Assembly: GCA_027046105.1 (NCBI GenBank)
Contig: JALTZQ010000031.1
Span: 1 to 5,994, forward strand
Length of the DNA: 5,994 nucleotides
DNA from: Pyrodictiaceae archaeon
GTDB lineage: Archaea; Thermoproteota; Thermoprotei_A; Sulfolobales; Pyrodictiaceae
Reading direction: 5' to 3'
Part shown: piece after piece, positions 1 to 5,994 of the stretch
Layout of the letters: each line of letters starts with the position of its first letter
Numbering within the stretch: position 1 is the stretch's first letter
Translations under genes and position numbers: made by a program
Notes under the pieces: generated by a model
Databases searched by the model: none
The model's input: the letters and a program-made list of their open reading frames with translations, nothing else
What the model was told of the DNA's origin: nothing

Positions 1-44
1 AAGAGCTGCGTAGAAGCCCAGTAACGTGGGAAGGGAGCACTATT

Positions 45-722
45 ATGCTGGGCGGGTGCAGACATGTAGTTGCAGTAGTAGAAGGACACAACGACGCCTA
101 CCTCCTAGGCGCACTAGCCCCAGAAAGCCATGCCTACCACTACTATGAAGACCTGCGGAGCGTATACGAGAAACTATGGGAGTGCATATACGAGGAACAA
201 GAATGCATCATAGCATACATCGCCCAGGGACTAAAGAAGATAAAGGAAGCATCAAGGAAAATACGCATAATACTCAAAACCATCCCAGACCCAGAGAAAA
301 CCACATGCCTAACAGTAATAGTAGACAGCAACTCAGACGAGCCAGCAAAACGAGCAGAAGAATACTACCACGAAATAACCAGGAGCCAGCAGCCAGACAC
401 ACAAAACGCAGACAAGTACTTCGCAAAACTCTGCACAGCACAGGCCAAAGGACCAAAACTATGCACAGCCTCATGGAGATGTAGCGCAGAATGCTGGATA
501 GCACTAACAACCCCAGAAAACCCAGTCACAAACATAGAACAATGCAGCCCCAACCAGAGAAAACAATGCCACGAAACAGCAAGAGAACACCTAAAAAGAC
601 AAGAAGACAAGGTCAAAACACTAAAAGACAACATCAAAAACACAAAACATCCATGGAGAACACTACTAGACAACCTAACACAAAAGATACATGACGGCAC
701 ACTCGACAACAAGAAAACCTAA
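45..722 (+). CDS. TOPRIM / DUF3226-like protein, cysteine-rich
   Basis: This 225-residue protein is probably a small TOPRIM-fold protein of the DUF3226/OLD-nuclease-like kind; the biochemical role is unknown. Seen: a hydrophobic strand runs into VVEGHND (acidic residue E13), and a second strand runs into VIVDSNSDEPAKR (D94, N96, D98). This matches the E...DxD metal-binding layout and the acidic patch plus Arg typical of the family. A later segment, ECWIALTTPENP, resembles the family's conserved Trp/Pro region. Ten cysteines are present, including a KLCTA repeat about 11 residues apart and a WRCSAEC cluster, which is odd and could bind metal. The C-terminal third is Lys/Asn/Thr-rich and helical. 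ATG 45 is used because GGGAG lies 7 bases upstream, but the frame is open to the window edge with no other standard start, so the N-terminus may be longer. It is a single-gene unit as far as visible. Confidence 0.7.
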   Translation: MLGGCRHVVAVVEGHNDAYLLGALAPESHAYHYYEDLRSVYEKLWECIYEEQECIIAYIAQGLKKIKEASRKIRIILKTIPDPEKTTCLTVIVDSNSDEPAKRAEEYYHEITRSQQPDTQNADKYFAKLCTAQAKGPKLCTASWRCSAECWIALTTPENPVTNIEQCSPNQRKQCHETAREHLKRQEDKVKTLKDNIKNTKHPWRTLLDNLTQKIHDGTLDNKKT

Positions 723-925
723 GACCCCTCCAGACAGATAATTCATGGAAGAAAGATCCACCCACACTCTCTTCAAGTATAAGTTAATCGCCGTTCGCTG
801 CCCAATAGAGTAGGCCTAACACCTAGCACGGCTGGACTCTACAACTCATACATTAAAGACCCTAGCATGCCACTGATATCAGGCCACTAAGGATTAAACC
901 CTTCTCGAATTGCTGAGTTAAGACC

Positions 926-933
926 GATAAAAG
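926..933 (+). promoter_or_regulatory. Possible TATA box
   Basis: GATAAAAG is centred about 27 bases before GTG 957, the spacing expected for a leaderless archaeal transcript starting at that codon. The match is weak and there is no clear purine-rich BRE. Confidence 0.25.
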
Positions 934-956
934 CCTCATAACACGCCAAGAGAAGA

Positions 957-1199
957 GTGTGCTCGCTCCACATAATGTTCACAGAACTCTGGCAATGGGT
1001 TCTAATTCTTCGGTTCAGCATAAACTACTATGGCCCAGGCCTACTGGGCTGTCTAGGCGCTAGCACTGAGGCCGACACAAATAGATCTGCAACCCTTATA
1101 TCTTATGTTATGCTGGCACTAGGCGCCACGTGCTATACAACTATGAGAAAACAACAGTCCACAGTGTCAACTATAACCCCAGAGCAAATACATCCATAA
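957..1199 (+). CDS. Doubtful small hydrophobic protein
   Basis: An 80-residue frame that I do not recognise. Two hydrophobic stretches (about residues 11-35 and 45-60) could be membrane segments, followed by a polar tail ending STVSTITPEQIHP. GTG 957 fits a possible leaderless start from GATAAAAG; ATG 975 is an alternative giving 74 residues. Codon choice is plausible but less A/C-biased than the neighbouring gene at 45-722. It could be a small plasmid or viral membrane protein, or a chance ORF in a non-coding gap. Confidence 0.33.
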   Translation: MCSLHIMFTELWQWVLILRFSINYYGPGLLGCLGASTEADTNRSATLISYVMLALGATCYTTMRKQQSTVSTITPEQIHP

Positions 1200-1257
1200 G
1201 CAAGACATATAGCTGTAATACCAGTGAGAACGCCACATACAAGGGTTTCACAGGACA

Positions 1258-1566
1258 ATGAGCACTGGTTATATCCTAGAAAAGATTAGCATACTTCTAA
1301 ACTACCTAGCGGAAATAGCCAGAAAACCCTACAGTCTAATAAACCTATCTACATTCATCATTATTATGTGGATTCTCTTTGTAAGCAACCTTTCCGACTA
1401 TGTCAAACTCTTATCAAGCACAATACTCTTGTTTTCATCCATGCTACTACAATCCTTCCTAAGACTTTTTGTGCATGAAAGAAAGATAAAAGCAATCAGC
1501 CCTCCTATAATACGGGATAAGAGTGGTTATGGAGAACTTAAAAAGCACCACTGTATACTTGAGTGA
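1258..1566 (+). CDS. Small membrane protein with two predicted TM helices
   Basis: A 102-residue protein of unknown function. Seen: an amphipathic N-terminus, then a hydrophobic segment at about residues 27-45 (containing FIIIMWILFV) and a second at about 49-68, separated by a very short polar turn (NLSDY). A basic tail (HERKIKA) follows. This suggests a helical hairpin in the membrane with a cytoplasmic C-terminus by the positive-inside rule. ATG 1258 is the first start; no convincing ribosome site precedes it and the nearest TATA-like strings (around 1206-1212 and 1233-1240) are poor. Its 3' end overlaps the next gene by 38 bases, so the pair may be cotranscribed. The coding strand is richer in T than that of its neighbours, partly explained by hydrophobic codons. 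Confidence 0.6.
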   Translation: MSTGYILEKISILLNYLAEIARKPYSLINLSTFIIIMWILFVSNLSDYVKLLSSTILLFSSMLLQSFLRLFVHERKIKAISPPIIRDKSGYGELKKHHCILE

Positions 1567-2041
1567 AGACTCTTTAAGTAGTGATTTGTTTAAGCAGGTT
1601 GTAGAGTATAAAAGCGAGAGATACAAGTATATTGGCCGTTTACTGGAAGTTCTGGAAGAAGAGAAGTACATCAGCAAAAGAGAATTAGAGAAGATAATCA
1701 TGGAGAAAGGCATAATCCTAGATGTATTAGCGCAAGAGAGAGGACTATGGAATTACATAGACGAAAAGAGGAGAAGAAGGTCTATGAGGGAACTAGCTGA
1801 ATCCTATGGAGTCGAAGCTCAGAGCCAGACAATATTCGGAGTATACATGTCTACAAGAGCCGGAGAAGTCTTAGGAGAATACAAGCCCAAAATCCTACGT
1901 CTACAACGACAAAGACTCACAGCAGTCTCAGAGCACATGATAATCCTCAAGGGAGTAAAAAGCCTAGAAGAACTAAACAAGGTAATACTAAGACTTATGG
2001 AGGGCTACCTTAAATTCATGAAGGAGGCACAGAGAGGCTAG
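1529..2041 (+). CDS. Hypothetical helical protein
   Basis: A charged, mostly alpha-helical protein of about 170 residues that I do not recognise. A short beta-like N-terminus (STTVYLSED) is followed by helices rich in Glu, Lys and Arg; the stretch ISKRELEKIIMEKG and the basic run KRRRRSM look compatible with a DNA-binding helical domain, but no family motif is certain. ATG 1529 is chosen over GTG 1523, which is two codons upstream; neither has a clear ribosome site. TATAATA at 1506-1512 is somewhat too close (about 20 bases) to be a leaderless promoter. The gene starts inside the preceding ORF, and its last 28 bases overlap a second open frame (2014-2568) in the -1 frame. The two may be halves of one protein or a coupled pair. 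Confidence 0.68.
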   Translation: MENLKSTTVYLSEDSLSSDLFKQVVEYKSERYKYIGRLLEVLEEEKYISKRELEKIIMEKGIILDVLAQERGLWNYIDEKRRRRSMRELAESYGVEAQSQTIFGVYMSTRAGEVLGEYKPKILRLQRQRLTAVSEHMIILKGVKSLEELNKVILRLMEGYLKFMKEAQRG

Positions 2042-2568
2042 TAGCTACAGACACGCTAGAAGAAAATGAGAAAAACATACTTAAAGAAAGAGTAGAAGCA
2101 CTATCAAGCCTTGACCCAAGAATAATAATATCACCACCCTTCACGGGTAAAGAAGAGCAACACCCGGTAGTAGCAGTCCACATACCCTTTGAGTACACCA
2201 TGAAAGCCCTCCCATGGCTAAGCAGGGTTGTAGGCAAAGAAGCCATCATAGAGTCTCTACTAGAGGAAATGCTGAGAGAAGTCATAGAGCTACGCGGGAT
2301 AAGGCTACACCACATATTCAAGACAGTCGGGTGCAGAAACAAGGAGGCAGTAGAGAGGCTAAAGAAGCTAGAGAAGAAGATACTAAAAAGACTAGGCTAT
2401 GACAGCGTCTTACACCTAGTCAAAGCACATAGAAACCCCGCCAAGGCAATACTGGAAGCAATAAGGGGAGAAGACCCGGAAACCTACCATATCCTCGAAG
2501 AAAACTGTGGGCAAACACTAGGAGAACTAGAACAAGCAACAAAGGAAATAAGCAAAGTCCTACTATGA
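2014..2568 (+). CDS. Hypothetical protein, start codon missing
   Basis: The frame is open from just after a stop at 2011-2013 to TGA 2566-2568, but it contains no ATG, GTG or TTG before ATG 2200. Starting at 2200 gives 122 residues and leaves about 160 bases unexplained. Those bases translate to coding-like sequence (for example LEENEKNILKERVEALSSL, then HPVVAVHIPFEYT) that runs smoothly into MKALPWLSRVV, so I think the true protein begins earlier. The rest is charged and helical, with a Lys-rich region (ERLKKLEKKILKRLG) and the C-terminus EISKVLL. Options are a one-base deletion that split a fused gene, programmed frameshifting from 1529-2041, a non-standard start near 2041, or a real start at 2200. 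I recognise no family. Confidence 0.6.
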   Translation: MHEGGTERLVATDTLEENEKNILKERVEALSSLDPRIIISPPFTGKEEQHPVVAVHIPFEYTMKALPWLSRVVGKEAIIESLLEEMLREVIELRGIRLHHIFKTVGCRNKEAVERLKKLEKKILKRLGYDSVLHLVKAHRNPAKAILEAIRGEDPETYHILEENCGQTLGELEQATKEISKVLL

Positions 2569-2673
2569 AACAATACAAGATGACACCAAAGTACATGACT
2601 CAGAACCTCAGTCCAAGAGCAAAGCCCTACCCGGGAATGCATTAGGCTTAATAGCGTAATACACTCCCTCTCT

Positions 2674-2682
2674 TAAGATCTA
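2674..2682 (+). promoter_or_regulatory. Possible TATA box for the membrane-anchored gene
   Basis: CTTAAGATC lies about 37 bases before GTG 2715, which would place transcription start near 2703 and give a short leader containing AGGT at 2702-2705 as a weak ribosome site. The assignment rests on spacing and A/T content only. Confidence 0.3.
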
Positions 2683-2714
2683 TGAGCGTTACACTCGAAA
2701 AAGGTTGACCAACA

Positions 2715-3092
2715 GTGACAGACTACGAAGCTACCTATGAAAACACCACATACTACTCTTCGTGGATCCTAGTAATAGATAAGGTTCTAAAGCGTAGAGC
2801 ACACGAGAGCATAATCATACCAGAGCACAGCATATTACACCCACTACAAGACCCCATCATAAAGTTCGAGAAAACAATAGGCGAGCCACGAGGCCAGCTA
2901 GGAGACTACGAGTACACCCTACCAGACAAGAGGAGAATACACGTAAGAGAATACAGCACATACTACGAAGTACACTGGGACTACGCGAGCCCCAAGCTAG
3001 ACCCCATAAGACACCTAGTACATGACGCACCCCACTGGCTCCTCCTAGGCATCATTGCAGTCCTAGTACTAGCAAGGCTATCCAAGAAATAG
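2715..3092 (+). CDS. Hypothetical protein with C-terminal membrane anchor
   Basis: A 125-residue protein of no family I recognise. The N-terminal hundred residues are polar and rich in Tyr, His, Arg and Glu with alternating beta-like patterns (DYEYTLPDKRRIHVREYSTYYEVHWDY, seen as two pieces around residues 70-95). The last 20 residues contain one hydrophobic segment (WLLLGIIAVLVLA, about residues 108-120) and a short basic tail RLSKK. That is a tail-anchor layout, implying a soluble domain tethered to the membrane. GTG 2715 is the only possible start: an in-frame TGA lies at 2706-2708 and there is no internal Met. It is separated from its upstream neighbour by 146 bases and is probably transcribed alone. 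The coding strand is strongly A/C-rich, like the gene at 45-722. Confidence 0.68.
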   Translation: MTDYEATYENTTYYSSWILVIDKVLKRRAHESIIIPEHSILHPLQDPIIKFEKTIGEPRGQLGDYEYTLPDKRRIHVREYSTYYEVHWDYASPKLDPIRHLVHDAPHWLLLGIIAVLVLARLSKK

Positions 3093-3124
3093 TCAAGACA
3101 AAACTAAGCTTAGGCAAATCCAGG

Positions 3125-3195
3125 AGTCTCAGCAACACTAAAGGCTTGAGAATACATAAACTCATGGGGAGGCATGAGAGGAGACTGTCTCCTCT
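3125..3195. other. Hairpin-rich gap between convergent genes
   Basis: Three stem-loops lie end to end. The first pairs TCTCAGC (3127-3133) with GCTTGAGA (3144-3151), with one bulged base and a 10-base loop. The second pairs CTCATG (3161-3166) with CATGAG (3173-3178). The third is a perfect 9-1-9 palindrome (3177-3195). AGTCTC (3125-3130) could instead pair with GAGACT (3181-3186), a possible alternative fold. It lies between the ends of convergent genes (3092 plus, 3263 minus), so it could be a transcription boundary or a small RNA; no classical U-run follows on the plus strand. Confidence 0.4.
3177..3195. repeat. Perfect 9-1-9 palindrome
   Basis: AGAGGAGAC, a single T, then GTCTCCTCT. It could act as a protein binding site or as an RNA hairpin. 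Its place between convergent transcripts fits a bidirectional barrier, but no poly-T tract adjoins it; the nearest T-rich run for the minus-strand operon is at about 3208-3216. Confidence 0.6.
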
Positions 3196-3262
3196 AAGAG
3201 ATGACAATTAAAATATCGCTTGCCAAGCTCTTATTGACTGTTAAGTGTTATTGTTCAAGCGA

Positions 3263-3592
3263 CTATGTGTGCCGCGTCATACTGAGATACTTGTTCATCC
3301 GTAGTTTTCTGTAGATAAGCCCCGTGGTGACTGCTTCTGCTAGCCACTCTAGTATGTAAAGTGCGCGTTGTAGCTTGTGTTTTAGCAATTTGTATTCTAG
3401 TACTGATGTAAATGGATAGAGTTGTAGTAGTGTTAGTGATGAGTGTACAAATCCACTATAGTCACCATAGAGTCTTTGAAGCTCTACCTTTAATCCAAGC
3501 TCTTTTGCATGTTGCTCTGTAAGCTGAACAAGAAGCACTAGGTTGACTACTGGTAAAACAGCCTTGGAGCTTGTAATGACGGTGATAGGCAT
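3263..3592 (-). CDS. Hypothetical protein, third gene of partition-like operon
   Basis: A 109-residue protein of no family I recognise. It is rich in Leu and mostly helical (ELGLKVELQRL, SLTLLQLYPF, LEYKLLKHKLQRALYILEWLAEAV), without a clear membrane segment or DNA-binding motif, and it ends in a basic tail. ATG 3592 lies one base after the TAG of the preceding gene (TAGAATG on the minus strand), so translation is very probably coupled and the product probably works with the ParA and RHH proteins encoded upstream. It could be an adaptor or regulator of the partition complex; that is inference from position alone. Confidence 0.65.
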   Translation of the reverse strand: MPITVITSSKAVLPVVNLVLLVQLTEQHAKELGLKVELQRLYGDYSGFVHSSLTLLQLYPFTSVLEYKLLKHKLQRALYILEWLAEAVTTGLIYRKLRMNKYLSMTRHT

Positions 3593-3593
3593 T

Positions 3594-4076
3594 CTATGTA
3601 GTGTGTTGCCACACGTACTCTACAAACTTTCTCAACAAACCCTTGTATACATAGTATGATTTTTTACTTATACTATGTCCTCTCTGATACTCTTCTAGAA
3701 AAACTTGTATAAGACTTTCATGTATCTTCGATGCCGGAACCCCCTTCTTCTTCACCCATGAAGCGAACTCCCTAATGATGAATGTATTTTTCTTAATGCT
3801 CTCTGCGCGAATGAAGTCTTCCACAAGTTCTTCTATGTCTGTTTTAACAGTCTCAGTAGCTAAAGCAGCTGACTCTACACCGGAAGCACTCTCACTTATT
3901 GATATTCTTCGCCCCTTTTCAAGGCCAGCCTTCCATGCTTCATAGTAATATGTAAGGATTGTTGCAATAACCTGGTCTGGCTGCATTGCAATCTGATTAG
4001 AGAACTCGTAGAGCCACTCAACCAAATATCTCGGTAGCCTAATCCTTATAATACTAAAGTTACTTGAGCCCTTCAA
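3594..4076 (-). CDS. RHH protein with C-terminal SAM-like helical domain; putative centromere-binding partner
   Basis: A 160-residue protein, probably the DNA-binding partner of the adjacent ParA. Residues 7-52 fit a ribbon-helix-helix fold: a beta strand (FSIIRIRLP), a helix (RYLVEWLYEFSNQIA), a turn, and a second helix (DQVIATILTYYYEAWKAGL). A Ser/Ala/Thr-rich linker spans about 58-78. The C-terminal part, about 80-160, is all-helical (LVEDFIRAESIKKNTFIIREF ... LEEYQRGHSISKKSYYVYKGLLRKFVEYV) and resembles the N-terminal SAM-like core-binding domain of tyrosine recombinases, without any catalytic domain. TTG 4076 is the start: it overlaps the parA end by 17 bases and has a GAGGATC ribosome-site match at 4090-4084. 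Archaeal SegB is also RHH but shorter and without this extra domain, so the architecture is unusual. The SAM-like call is by eye. Confidence 0.72.
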   Translation of the reverse strand: MKGSSNFSIIRIRLPRYLVEWLYEFSNQIAMQPDQVIATILTYYYEAWKAGLEKGRRISISESASGVESAALATETVKTDIEELVEDFIRAESIKKNTFIIREFASWVKKKGVPASKIHESLIQVFLEEYQRGHSISKKSYYVYKGLLRKFVEYVWQHTT

Positions 4077-4926
4077 AGTTCTCGATCCTCTCAGTAACCT
4101 CCTTAGCCAAACTCTCTATATTCTGTTTTAACTCATTATTTCTCTCTATAACCCTATATAGAGGAACGTCCCATCTTCTAGGCCTATACGTTAGATCTCT
4201 AAGCTCATTATACCTGTATATGATTGTGTCAAATACGGGCTTAGAGTAGAAGCGCTCACGTATTACAGGAGGTAGCTGACGTAGGAACTTCGTGAGTTTA
4301 TCGTTAAGTTCATTTATGGTCTTAGACTTAGAACTGTATTTTCTCACTACATTTATCAGTAATACGCCTAGAACCCTTACATCCTTCCTGCTCGTCATAA
4401 TAACTTCTGGGAGGATATCCCGTATCAACAATTTTACCCCTAAAAGAGAGAGCTCTTCAAGATTTGAAGGAATCAGTATGTAGTCAGCTGTAAATAGCCC
4501 CCAAATGGTTGGCGGGAAAAGCTCTGGAGGCGAGTCGCATATAACGAAATCGAAGGATTTATTTATAGCAGGCTCAGTAGTAATACGCCGATAAATAGCA
4601 TATGGATCCCAGGATGGAATAGCACCCCTATACACGCTTACTATATAATTAAGACCCGATGGGATGATACCAACCTTACCCTTTGTACCCATGTTTACAG
4701 ATCTAATCTTAAAGCGCCCACCTTGAGCCATCTCTATGAAGCCATCAGTAATAGACTCAAGTTGAGGTATCTTTATAAAGAAGGATGAGAGATGGGCTTG
4801 TGGGTCTAAATCTATTAATAGAACGTTATACCCCCTACTCGCCAAAGCATAGCCAAGTAATGATGTGAGTGTAGTTTTTCCAGTCCCTCCTTTCTGATTA
4901 GTAATCGTTATCACTTTAGGCGGCAC
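4060..4926 (-). CDS. parA: ParA/SegA-family Walker-type partition ATPase
   Basis: An ATPase of the ParA/MinD superfamily, which drives DNA segregation by ATP-dependent dimerisation and non-specific DNA binding. Seen in order: deviant Walker A KGGTGKTT at residues 12-19 with the signature Lys at 12 and P-loop Lys at 17; the switch motif LLIDLDPQAHLSSFF (D39, D41, Q43) typical of ParA proper; and Walker B FVICDSPPE with D131. The length of 288 is normal for archaeal ParA without an N-terminal HTH, so it probably does not repress its own promoter by itself. GTG 4926 is supported by AGGTGG 8-13 bases upstream and a TATA box. It is the first gene of a three-gene operon (overlap of 17 bases with the RHH gene). 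Codons are more T-rich than in the plus-strand genes at 1-3092, consistent with a separate origin. Confidence 0.95.
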   Translation of the reverse strand: MPPKVITITNQKGGTGKTTLTSLLGYALASRGYNVLLIDLDPQAHLSSFFIKIPQLESITDGFIEMAQGGRFKIRSVNMGTKGKVGIIPSGLNYIVSVYRGAIPSWDPYAIYRRITTEPAINKSFDFVICDSPPELFPPTIWGLFTADYILIPSNLEELSLLGVKLLIRDILPEVIMTSRKDVRVLGVLLINVVRKYSSKSKTINELNDKLTKFLRQLPPVIRERFYSKPVFDTIIYRYNELRDLTYRPRRWDVPLYRVIERNNELKQNIESLAKEVTERIENFEGLK

Positions 4927-4933
4927 TAAAAGG

Positions 4934-4940
4934 CCACCTA
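4934..4940 (-). promoter_or_regulatory. Ribosome binding site of parA
   Basis: TAGGTGG on the minus strand matches the crenarchaeal anti-Shine-Dalgarno (core GGTG) and leaves seven bases before GTG 4926. This supports the GTG start. Confidence 0.6.
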
Positions 4941-4964
4941 TTCGCTATTAGAATTTACAAAGTC

Positions 4965-4979
4965 AAAAATATACTTTCC
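4965..4979 (-). promoter_or_regulatory. Archaeal promoter of the parA operon
   Basis: On the minus strand a purine-rich BRE-like GGAAAG (4979-4974) is followed directly by TATATTTTT (4973-4965). Transcription would start near 4943-4945, giving a leader of about 18 bases that contains the ribosome binding site. Confidence 0.6.
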
Positions 4980-5201
4980 TATAAATACAAATATCGCTAC
5001 AAAAATGTTCCCATATAACACCATAAATAACTAGAGCAACATTACATCGTATATAACACAAAACTCGGATCTGCAAAACTTGGGATCAAACAGCTCTACT
5101 GTAGCAGAGGGAATAGTTGACATGTCCTTAAGCTATGCTCTCGAGAAACAATGCTGAGAAGAGGCTTTGAAACTATGTGAATAAGATGAAGGATCTTGCA
5201 T
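4980..5201. other. A/T-rich gap between parA promoter and GTAC array
   Basis: No gene is supported here. The part from 4980 to about 5060 is very A/T-rich and contains a 9-bp direct repeat, ATATAACAC, at 5013-5021 and 5051-5059, which may be chance. Bases 5061-5201 are more balanced and show nothing I can name. A frame on the minus strand (5305 to 5096) crosses the repeat array and looks spurious. The position beside a partition operon and a repeat array makes an origin or segregation site possible, but nothing in the bases shows it directly. Confidence 0.4.
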
Positions 5202-5202
5202 G

Positions 5203-5250
5203 GTACCTTAGTAGTACTATTAGCGTATGGGTATAGTACTACTAAGGTAC
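5203..5250. repeat. Perfect 18-bp inverted repeat with 12-base centre
   Basis: The arm GTACCTTAGTAGTACTAT (5203-5220) is the exact reverse complement of 5233-5250. Each arm carries two GTAC cores 11 bp apart. The centre (5221-5232) includes CGTATG at 5224-5229, in phase with the other cores, so the whole element is five 11-bp steps. It could extrude as a cruciform or simply reflect symmetric operator sites. Confidence 0.85.
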
Positions 5251-5278
5251 TAGAGGGTGGGATTGTAGGTGCTACAAA

Positions 5279-5295
5279 AGTACTATTATAGTACT
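5279..5295. repeat. 8-1-8 palindrome of two AGTACT sites
   Basis: AGTACTAT, one T, then ATAGTACT. It repeats the inner eight bases of the large inverted repeat's arms with a much shorter centre, and the two cores are again 11 bp apart. Confidence 0.8.
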
Positions 5296-5314
5296 GGGGC
5301 ATCAAATTTTAGTA

Positions 5315-5322
5315 CTTTTAAG
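5315..5322 (+). promoter_or_regulatory. Probable TATA box of the small RHH gene
   Basis: CTTTTAAG is centred about 30 bases before ATG 5349, predicting a transcription start near 5344 and an almost leaderless mRNA. It lies between the GTAC cores at 5312 and 5323, so protein bound there would block TBP. The TATA-like ATAAG at 5328-5332 is too close to the start. Confidence 0.45.
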
Positions 5323-5348
5323 GTACTATAAGAGTACTGGGTAATGTT

Positions 5349-5606
5349 ATGGCTAGACTCAAGCAGGTTAAGTTCTATCTTGGCGAGGAGCAGTATGAGA
5401 AGCTGAGGAAGATAGCCGAGCAGCAGGGCCTGTCTGTTCCAGCGCTAGTAAAGAGCATTGTTCTCGAGTACCTGGGGGAGGCTGAGTACGGGGACCTCGT
5501 CCATCGTATCGAGGAGCTTGAGAGGAAGTATGAGCAGCTAGCACGAGAGGTAGGCCGCATAGAAAGGGACCTAGCACTCCTCGCGAAGAGGTGTAGTAAG
5601 AGTTGA
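5349..5606 (+). CDS. Ribbon-helix-helix DNA-binding protein with C-terminal coiled coil
   Basis: An 85-residue CopG/Arc-type transcription factor. The strand LKQVKFYL (residues 4-11) would insert into the DNA major groove, followed by helix A (12-26), the turn GLS (27-29) and helix B (30-42, PALVKSIVLEYL). Residues 50-80 form a regular coiled coil with hydrophobic a/d positions L50, I54, L57, Y61, L64, V68, I71, L75 and L78, which may tie dimers together or bind a partner. ATG 5349 is the first start and lies 11 bases after the last array site. The gene is very probably autoregulated through the upstream GTAC array. Its stop overlaps the start of a truncated ATPase (TTGA), implying that the pair was once one operon. 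Codons are G-richer than those of the 5' genes. It could alternatively be a partition centromere-binding protein or an antitoxin-like regulator. Confidence 0.88.
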   Translation: MARLKQVKFYLGEEQYEKLRKIAEQQGLSVPALVKSIVLEYLGEAEYGDLVHRIEELERKYEQLAREVGRIERDLALLAKRCSKS

Positions 5607-5914
5607 ACATCAAAGAGCTGAGGAGGCTTCTAGAACCATACAACCCGTGGTGGAAGGATAGGCATTGGTACAAGTATGACCTGTTGCTCCGAAACTTCTA
5701 CAACTCCATGCTCAAGAGCGAGCCTAGGCTCTACTACCACCTAAGGAGGATAGCTACGCCCAGCGCATATGGTGTAATCACTATACGGGGGCCCCGGCGA
5801 GTAGGTAAAACCACGCTAATCAAGCTCCTCATAAGGTACCTTATTGAGGAGAAGAATGTTGACCCCCGAGCAATATTCTACATCTCCCTAGACTACGGAT
5901 CTCCTCTAGAATAG
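5603..5914 (+). pseudogene. Truncated archaeal AAA-type ATPase
   Basis: The N-terminal 103 residues of an archaeal P-loop ATPase of the AAA family common in Crenarchaeota, whose intact members are several hundred residues long. Seen: the typical opening with NPWWKDRHW (residues 14-22), Walker A GPRRVGKTT (63-71), then the strand AIFYISLDYGSPLE, where it ends at TAG. Walker B, sensor and C-terminal regions are absent, and the two other forward frames of the remaining 80 bases do not restore them. It should be unable to hydrolyse ATP normally. TTG 5603 is the start and overlaps the RHH stop codon as TTGA. The break near 5895-5914 looks like a deletion or recombination junction. A shortened but still expressed product cannot be ruled out. 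Confidence 0.82.
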
Positions 5915-5994
5915 CCTTCTCCACAGCTGCTGGCACCCCAACACCCGCAACCTATACTAGCTCCTTAAAACTTGATTAACCCACCGTCCAAGGA

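Follow-up and report, generated by a model that had tools for sequence, protein, structure and literature searches.

A helically phased array of GTAC sites as the probable operator of an archaeal ribbon-helix-helix–ATPase operon

What does a long series of short palindromes, spaced by turns of the DNA helix, do in front of a small archaeal gene? This question is raised by a stretch of 5,994 nucleotides from a Pyrodictiaceae archaeon (GenBank assembly GCA_027046105.1, contig JALTZQ010000031.1, positions 1 to 5,994 of the forward strand), which is called the window below. It carries an array of RGTACY sites ahead of a gene for a ribbon-helix-helix (RHH) protein, which is followed by the remnant of an ATPase gene. 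As far as sequence comparison can tell, the array is probably a cooperative autoregulatory operator bound by the RHH protein, with the RHH–ATPase operon as its target, and this is by far the simplest reading. The features of the window are as follows (G001 and its locus L002 are the nearest relative).

5202..5218: distal site pair, GGTACC 5202-5207 and AGTACT 5213-5218; G001 has both in the same slots
5203..5250: perfect 18-nt inverted repeat, arms 5203-5220 and 5233-5250 lying 12 nt apart, made by the two upstream pairs
5235..5251: second site pair, AGTACT 5235-5240 and GGTACT 5246-5251; both are found in G001
5268..5295: middle triplet, weak GGTGCT 5268-5273, AGTACT 5279-5284 and AGTACT 5290-5295; G001 has GGTACT in the weak-site slot
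5304..5311, plus strand: TATA-like AAATTTTA, a putative promoter element, where a site is skipped ahead of the last triplet (empty slot 5296-5310)
5311..5338: promoter-proximal triplet, AGTACT 5311-5316, GGTACT 5322-5327 and AGTACT 5333-5338
5349..5606, plus strand: RHH protein of 85 aa, with the RHH domain at about 5-43 and a long C-terminal helix at 48-84
5603..5914, plus strand: 5' remnant of the ATPase gene, whose TTG start overlaps the RHH stop (5603/5606); AAA_14, 33.8 bits with a cut-off of 27

The nine RGTACY sites start at 5202, 5213, 5235, 5246, 5279, 5290, 5311, 5322 and 5333, at intervals of 11, 22, 11, 33, 11, 21, 11 and 11 bp, and the last of them starts 16 bp ahead of the RHH start codon. 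The initial annotation had reported nine such sites in 137 bp, and its positions and spacings proved exact. The intergenic region 4927-5348 (422 bp) contains nine GTAC and nine RGTACY, with 18 pairs at multiples of 11 bp and five neighbours at 11 bp. In 5000 dinucleotide shuffles of this region the GTAC count was reached once, and the numbers of RGTACY, of pairs at 11-bp multiples and of 11-bp neighbours were never reached. Outside the array, only five scattered RGTACY occur in the window (415, 3065, 3399, 5467 and 5835).

Relatives of the module were collected with an alignment of 33 RHH sequences, which gave 12 loci in the genome collection and more from whole genomes. In total 21 loci (window included) reach an E-value of 1e-8, and 17 of them (window included), in which the RHH is found together with its coiled coil, form the family used here. 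The four loci left out are G012 (a fragment of 43 codons, residues 27-69), G218 (an AbrB-like protein, 35-84), G187 (7-43 only) and G072 (48-84 only), and none of them shows a ladder. The family survey is incomplete, since one of the RHH locus searches drew a sample of 398 from a larger phylum. Orthologues without repeats, which the initial annotation had named as evidence against the array belonging to the downstream gene, were searched for, and an array was found directly upstream of the RHH gene at all 17 family loci, with 130 RGTACY in total. In order to compare, 23 loci where the RHH or the coiled coil gives a weaker hit were scanned, and none holds more than two RGTACY in any 140 bp. The array is thus tied to the RHH gene, because the family loci carry it and the weak-hit loci do not. 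Moreover, when 80 palindromic dyads were ranked at each locus without bias, GTAC came first at 14 of the 17 loci and second, behind TANTA, at two.

The intervals over the 17 loci are mostly 10 bp (30), 11 bp (41) and 20-23 bp (26). A period scan gives a peak at 10.6 bp with a power of 5.37, while the highest power among 2000 random placements of equal site numbers is 3.09. This value is close to one turn of B-DNA, and the common period over 130 sites bears out the earlier suggestion that the sites lie on one DNA face. Seven pairs of loci were aligned and three non-overlapping ones were pooled. The GTAC cores are changed at 9 of 113 positions and the spacers at 70 of 244 (p 4.5e-6), where a core column is one with GTAC in at least one sequence, a definition that leans towards conservation. 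For the window and G001 alone, the changes are 1 of 40 in cores and 31 of 96 in spacers. The cores are thus better conserved than the spacers.

These comparative data also bear on simple sequence expansion, by which the 11-bp ladder would be a functionless minisatellite. AGTACT ladders do occur in 28 stretches of unrelated viral contigs, and many of the 16 inspected are plain tandem repeats with identical spacers. Here, however, the spacers vary between sites, the intervals mix 10 and 11 bp, the cores are conserved relative to the spacers and the presence of the array tracks the RHH gene. The minisatellite is largely refuted in this way and is barely credible. In the 16 inspected viral stretches no RHH–ATPase pair was seen, by eye only, among the listed neighbouring open reading frames. 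A separate observation is L067:8246-8588 with its relatives L068, L070, L073 and L077, where 26-28 GTAC, mostly in 11-bp steps, are coding repeats, in a reading frame that lies on a viral contig beside a ParA-like gene.

In the commonest plan of the array, triplets are separated by one empty slot, and the promoter-side run consists of three RGTACY at 14 of 17 loci. A 17-bp stretch that ends at the first site of this run contains TTTA at 15 of 17 loci (TTTTA at 12 of 17); the equivalent stretch before the preceding group contains it at none of them. An archaeal TATA element at that slot would put the start of transcription near the last site. The initial annotation had regarded the array as an older continuous 11-bp ladder, partly eroded, with degenerate copies at two skipped positions. 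The first part is rejected, because the empty slots recur among relatives, with a TATA-like element in the promoter-side slot, and because GTAT at 5225 has no counterpart in the closest relative. Of the two proposed copies, GGTGCT at 5268-5273 is credible as a degenerate site, since G001 (locus L002) has GGTACT in this slot; GTAT at 5225 is unsupported as an eroded copy, since the aligned stretch of G001 has no site there. The gaps in the array are mostly not the result of erosion.

The RHH domain is recognized by a curated profile (PF01402, 25.5 bits with a cut-off of 20.5), and the PDB sequence matches of the protein include the archaeal virus regulator AvtR (4hv0, E 5e-5). An AlphaFold2 monomer shows helices at 13-25 and 30-41 and the long C-terminal helix, with no strand, as expected in the absence of the dimer. 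With this monomer all Foldseek hits have E above 0.5, and Arc and AvtR on top lend weak support. A protein search with the RHH sequence gave 67 clusters, whose source names, where given, are Thermoprotei and related thermophilic archaea. The protein also passes a NikA-like Pfam profile by the narrowest of margins (27.2 bits, cut-off 27), and RHH accessory proteins with a helical stalk, such as PcfF, are known, as far as the consulted part of the source describes them. The RHH could accordingly be a NikA/MobC-like accessory protein of a relaxosome, with the array belonging to a transfer origin (oriT). However, no relaxase family was found in the ten window proteins scanned (neighbours elsewhere were not scanned for relaxases), the conserved neighbour is an ATPase and not a relaxase, and matches of the RHH to plasmids span residues 5-39 at most. 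Such an origin is highly improbable.

Two genes make up the operon: in the relatives the RHH gene is followed by one for an AAA_14/DUF4143 ATPase of about 516 aa. The two overlap by a few bases at most loci and are separated by a gap of 6 bp in G003. This partner was overlooked in the initial annotation, and the role of the array is not judgeable without it. In the window the first 99 residues of the ATPase are homologous, with Walker A intact, and the homology stops at 5895-5897. The last 99 bases (5896-5994) match nothing in the sequences searched, and the break near 5896 may be a real truncation or an assembly join. The complete protein is predicted to be a P-loop ATPase with a STAND-like arrangement, and its predicted fold and profile similarity point to the archaeal STAND/MNS ATPases 2qen and 2fna and to the PADLOC candidate PDC-S01, for which no RHH partner with an array is described in the parts of the sources consulted. 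Residues E454, D456, E473 and K475 are invariant in 40 sequences and lie on strands 455-463 and 466-474, a nuclease-like pattern that may represent the PD-(D/E)XK motif. No nuclease fold match was obtained for the C-terminal part, which was not folded or searched alone, and a PDB sequence search with the ATPase profile returned nothing useful. The ATPase of G006 (L080:2686-4236) has Walker A GxxxxGET instead of GxxxxGKT, which is a sequencing error or an inactive copy.

An RHH protein and an ATPase beside an array also recall DNA partition, and the iterons of plasmid R1 are 11 bp long. The array could be centromere-like, an RHH-coated partition site moved by the ATPase or by a ParA encoded in the window (4060-4926), with operator use as a side effect. 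In ParR/parC (R1, pB171, pSK41), an RHH dimer whose C-terminal part binds the motor ATPase sits on tandem iterons of about 10-11 bp that lie ahead of the operon, in R1 on both sides of the promoter, and represses it (PMC5016525, in the part consulted). Dimers of the pSM19035 omega protein, an RHH ParB, polymerise on contiguous repeats overlapping promoters (PMC9499535 and PMC4803016, in part), with 7-10 contiguous heptads, at least four of which are required for full ATPase activation (PMC9499535). The ParA gene in the window and the plasmid- or virus-like surroundings of array-only copies (see below) fit such a role as well. However, the RHH and the one-turn iterons around a promoter are shared with ParMRC, but the actin-like ParM is not; its place is taken by the AAA_14/DUF4143 protein, a STAND-like ATPase with nuclease-like residues that is neither ParM nor ParA. 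Unlike parC, the array consists of 6-bp palindromes in triplets with TATA in the gap, in an archaeon. The 7-bp omega heptads are non-palindromic and contiguous without a 10.6-bp phase, and the partner there is ParA, which is no constant neighbour of this array. When the window ParA was compared by tblastn with 24 loci of differing length, one match was found (L082, 22% identity, E 2e-8), although partners lying farther away would escape. The module is also located on large chromosomal contigs (G226, G329, G218). A partition site is therefore unlikely as the explanation of the array.

On the minus strand of the window, the ParA gene (4060-4926; phrog_164, E 7e-42) is followed by a gene for an uncharacterised 160-aa protein (3594-4076); the two possibly serve to partition the element to which the window belongs. 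No relative of the RHH protein was confirmed in the viral contigs. The RHH of Aeropyrum coil-shaped virus (38% identity) was rejected as an array-bearing relative, as no ladder lies upstream of it. In known plasmids the RHH protein has partial hits only, the RHH of G226 has none and the ATPase has seven remote hits; no ATPase hit was found in phages.

The ATPase was used as a query for related operons with other DNA-binding partners. For example, two operons (G004:C57 and G092:C357) encode a different RHH, with strand TLSTK, and carry GTNNAC triplets with steps of 9-10 bp that follow the same plan, down to an AT-rich TTTATTAA ahead of the last triplet. At both, the dyad scan ranks GTNNAC highest. 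In G218, an AbrB-like domain sits on the same coiled coil (E 1.0e-9, residues 35-84) and is followed by the same ATPase (E 8.3e-221), the one case in which the DNA-binding domain is swapped with the coiled coil and ATPase retained, and no ladder was found upstream of it. The RHH sequence and the array motif thus change together, which fits an RHH-bound operator, though in few cases (two and one). Judged by eye, both the RHH proteins and the repeats of G041 and G050 are different again. Longer palindromes of type TACCCCAAGCTGGGGTA lie upstream of another RHH–ATPase pair (L153, G050:C152). Likewise by eye, short palindromic repeats alternate with TATA-like boxes before distant AAA_14/DUF4143 ATPases at L160, L162, L163, L164, L169 and L170, for example three repeats at L169, and these six genes have no clear DNA-binding partner. 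Partner reading frames called at 21 distant ATPase loci appear spurious and were not used.

The pattern GTAC N6-7 GTAC N6-7 GTAC was searched in 14 genomes. It is found at the module in 12 of them (none in G012 and G226) and in three other places, one of which is a spacer of clustered regularly interspaced short palindromic repeats (CRISPR); the backward control pattern matches once each in G001, G011 and G029. Full RGTACY triplets occur in 15 of 229 genomes of one class, and the control in none. These 15 comprise eight module loci, five arrays without an RHH gene, one triplet inside an intron-bearing tRNA-like gene (G097, by eye) and one within a reading frame (G149). Since full triplets are nearly confined to the module and the array-only loci, the RHH protein appears to have no visible regulon of such triplets in these genomes.

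The five array-only copies (G049, G052, G062, G064 and G067) have 5-6 sites in two groups with one empty slot. Their positions are as follows.

L122:3347-3411: array-only copy
L123:2965-3030: array-only copy
L124:1040-1094: array-only copy
L125:7665-7731: array-only copy
L126:2020-2076: array-only copy

No RHH of the family was found within the contig stretch examined (the best weak hit has E 0.0014, in L125), and the many small winged helix-turn-helix and membrane genes around them resemble an integrated mobile element. These copies are what favours the array as a platform for another host DNA-binding protein, with the RHH gene merely adjacent. Against this, the motif shifts with the RHH type (GTAC, GTNNAC), the ladder is gone with the AbrB-like domain, and the bare pattern is almost confined to the module in the 14 genomes, so that another binder is very unlikely.

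In G029, a CRISPR array of 78 spacers includes the following one.

L129:2821-2862 (G029:C9): CRISPR spacer of 42 nt, 41 of them identical to the GTAC array of G029:C47

The identity covers the first 41 bases of the spacer and the outer end of the GTAC array, which lies on another contig of the same genome; the array was therefore sampled as foreign DNA. A CCN motif is known for some Sulfolobales. The 5' flank of the target in G029 is TAA and not CCN, and active CRISPR interference is therefore not claimed. A 191-bp query of the array against the 229 genomes matched only G029 and G001, and the only spacer was that of G029.

In the favoured reading, a single RHH dimer would occupy each palindromic RGTACY by way of the major groove. 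Spaced by one helix turn, the dimers would share a DNA face and contact one another, binding cooperatively in sets of about three. The filled array would switch off transcription of the RHH–ATPase operon, because the TATA-like slot precedes the last triplet and this triplet covers the expected start, and the large number of weak sites would give a steep switch. The partner ATPase, with its STAND-like arrangement and putative nuclease-like C-terminal domain, is most likely bound by the C-terminal helix of the RHH protein, so that this protein would both repress the operon and hold the ATPase, much as an antitoxin holds a toxin. By analogy, and as far as the consulted parts of the sources go, this mechanism resembles those of omega/pSM19035, ParR/parC and SvtR.

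Several observations weigh against an autoregulatory operator of an antitoxin-like pair. Pure autoregulation does not explain the five array-only copies, and the 17 loci are not 17 independent origins, because they have common ancestors. In G226, GTAC is outside the top three dyads and the ladder is degenerate, with GGTTCT/GGTTCY and GGAACC alternating with AGTACY; the ladder of G329 is irregular. A strict 3+3+3 layout is found in only 3 of 17 loci (G006, G010, G011), and five (G003, G004, G005, G007, G008) are one site short of it. A complete ATPase gene is missing at 4 of 17 loci, window included. The closest curated name for the RHH protein, RelB antitoxin, scores 22.7 bits with a cut-off of 50, and Pfam and NCBIfam profiles on three ATPases gave AAA_14/DUF4143 and no toxin family.

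Among known systems, the archaeal virus proteins SvtR and AvtR are also RHH repressors, and spreading from a distal site towards the TATA box was proposed for them (PMC5569661, in part); unlike here, their sites are described in that part as imperfect inverted repeats without a ladder, and no ATPase partner is described. In type II toxin–antitoxin systems (RelB, VapB, MazE), a small RHH or AbrB domain with a partner-binding segment is encoded first in an overlapping pair, and palindromic operators lie at its own promoter (PMC4803016, in the part consulted). The operon described here likewise begins with a small DNA-binding protein, but the second protein is an ATPase of about 516 aa outside the known toxin families, and operators there usually have one or two palindromes. 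Because no toxin family was matched, the module is not filed as a type II toxin–antitoxin system, only as working like one. Taken alone, a toxin–antitoxin-like or defence-like role of the operon is a serious possibility, although slightly more doubtful than probable.

A further alternative is an archaeal immune or addiction family in which the RHH lays ATPase–nucleases on one DNA face in threes, inactive, and loss or titration of the RHH frees or triggers them. An invading element that brings an array of the kind seen in the five array-only copies might, for example, cause the titration. This is rather improbable as the explanation of the array.

For the cooperative operator, the precedent is that multi-site RHH operators are already known from bacterial plasmids. 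In the open-licence full texts searched, neither a helically phased triplet array with an archaeal TATA in the gap nor an RHH–STAND-like ATPase operon of this type was found described. The array motif varies with the DNA-binding domain, and these operons form a natural series in which DNA recognition by RHH proteins, and the dependence of cooperativity on phase, can be studied. Should the operon prove to be a defence or addiction system, it would be a case, in thermophilic archaea, of a STAND-like ATPase controlled by an antitoxin-like partner.
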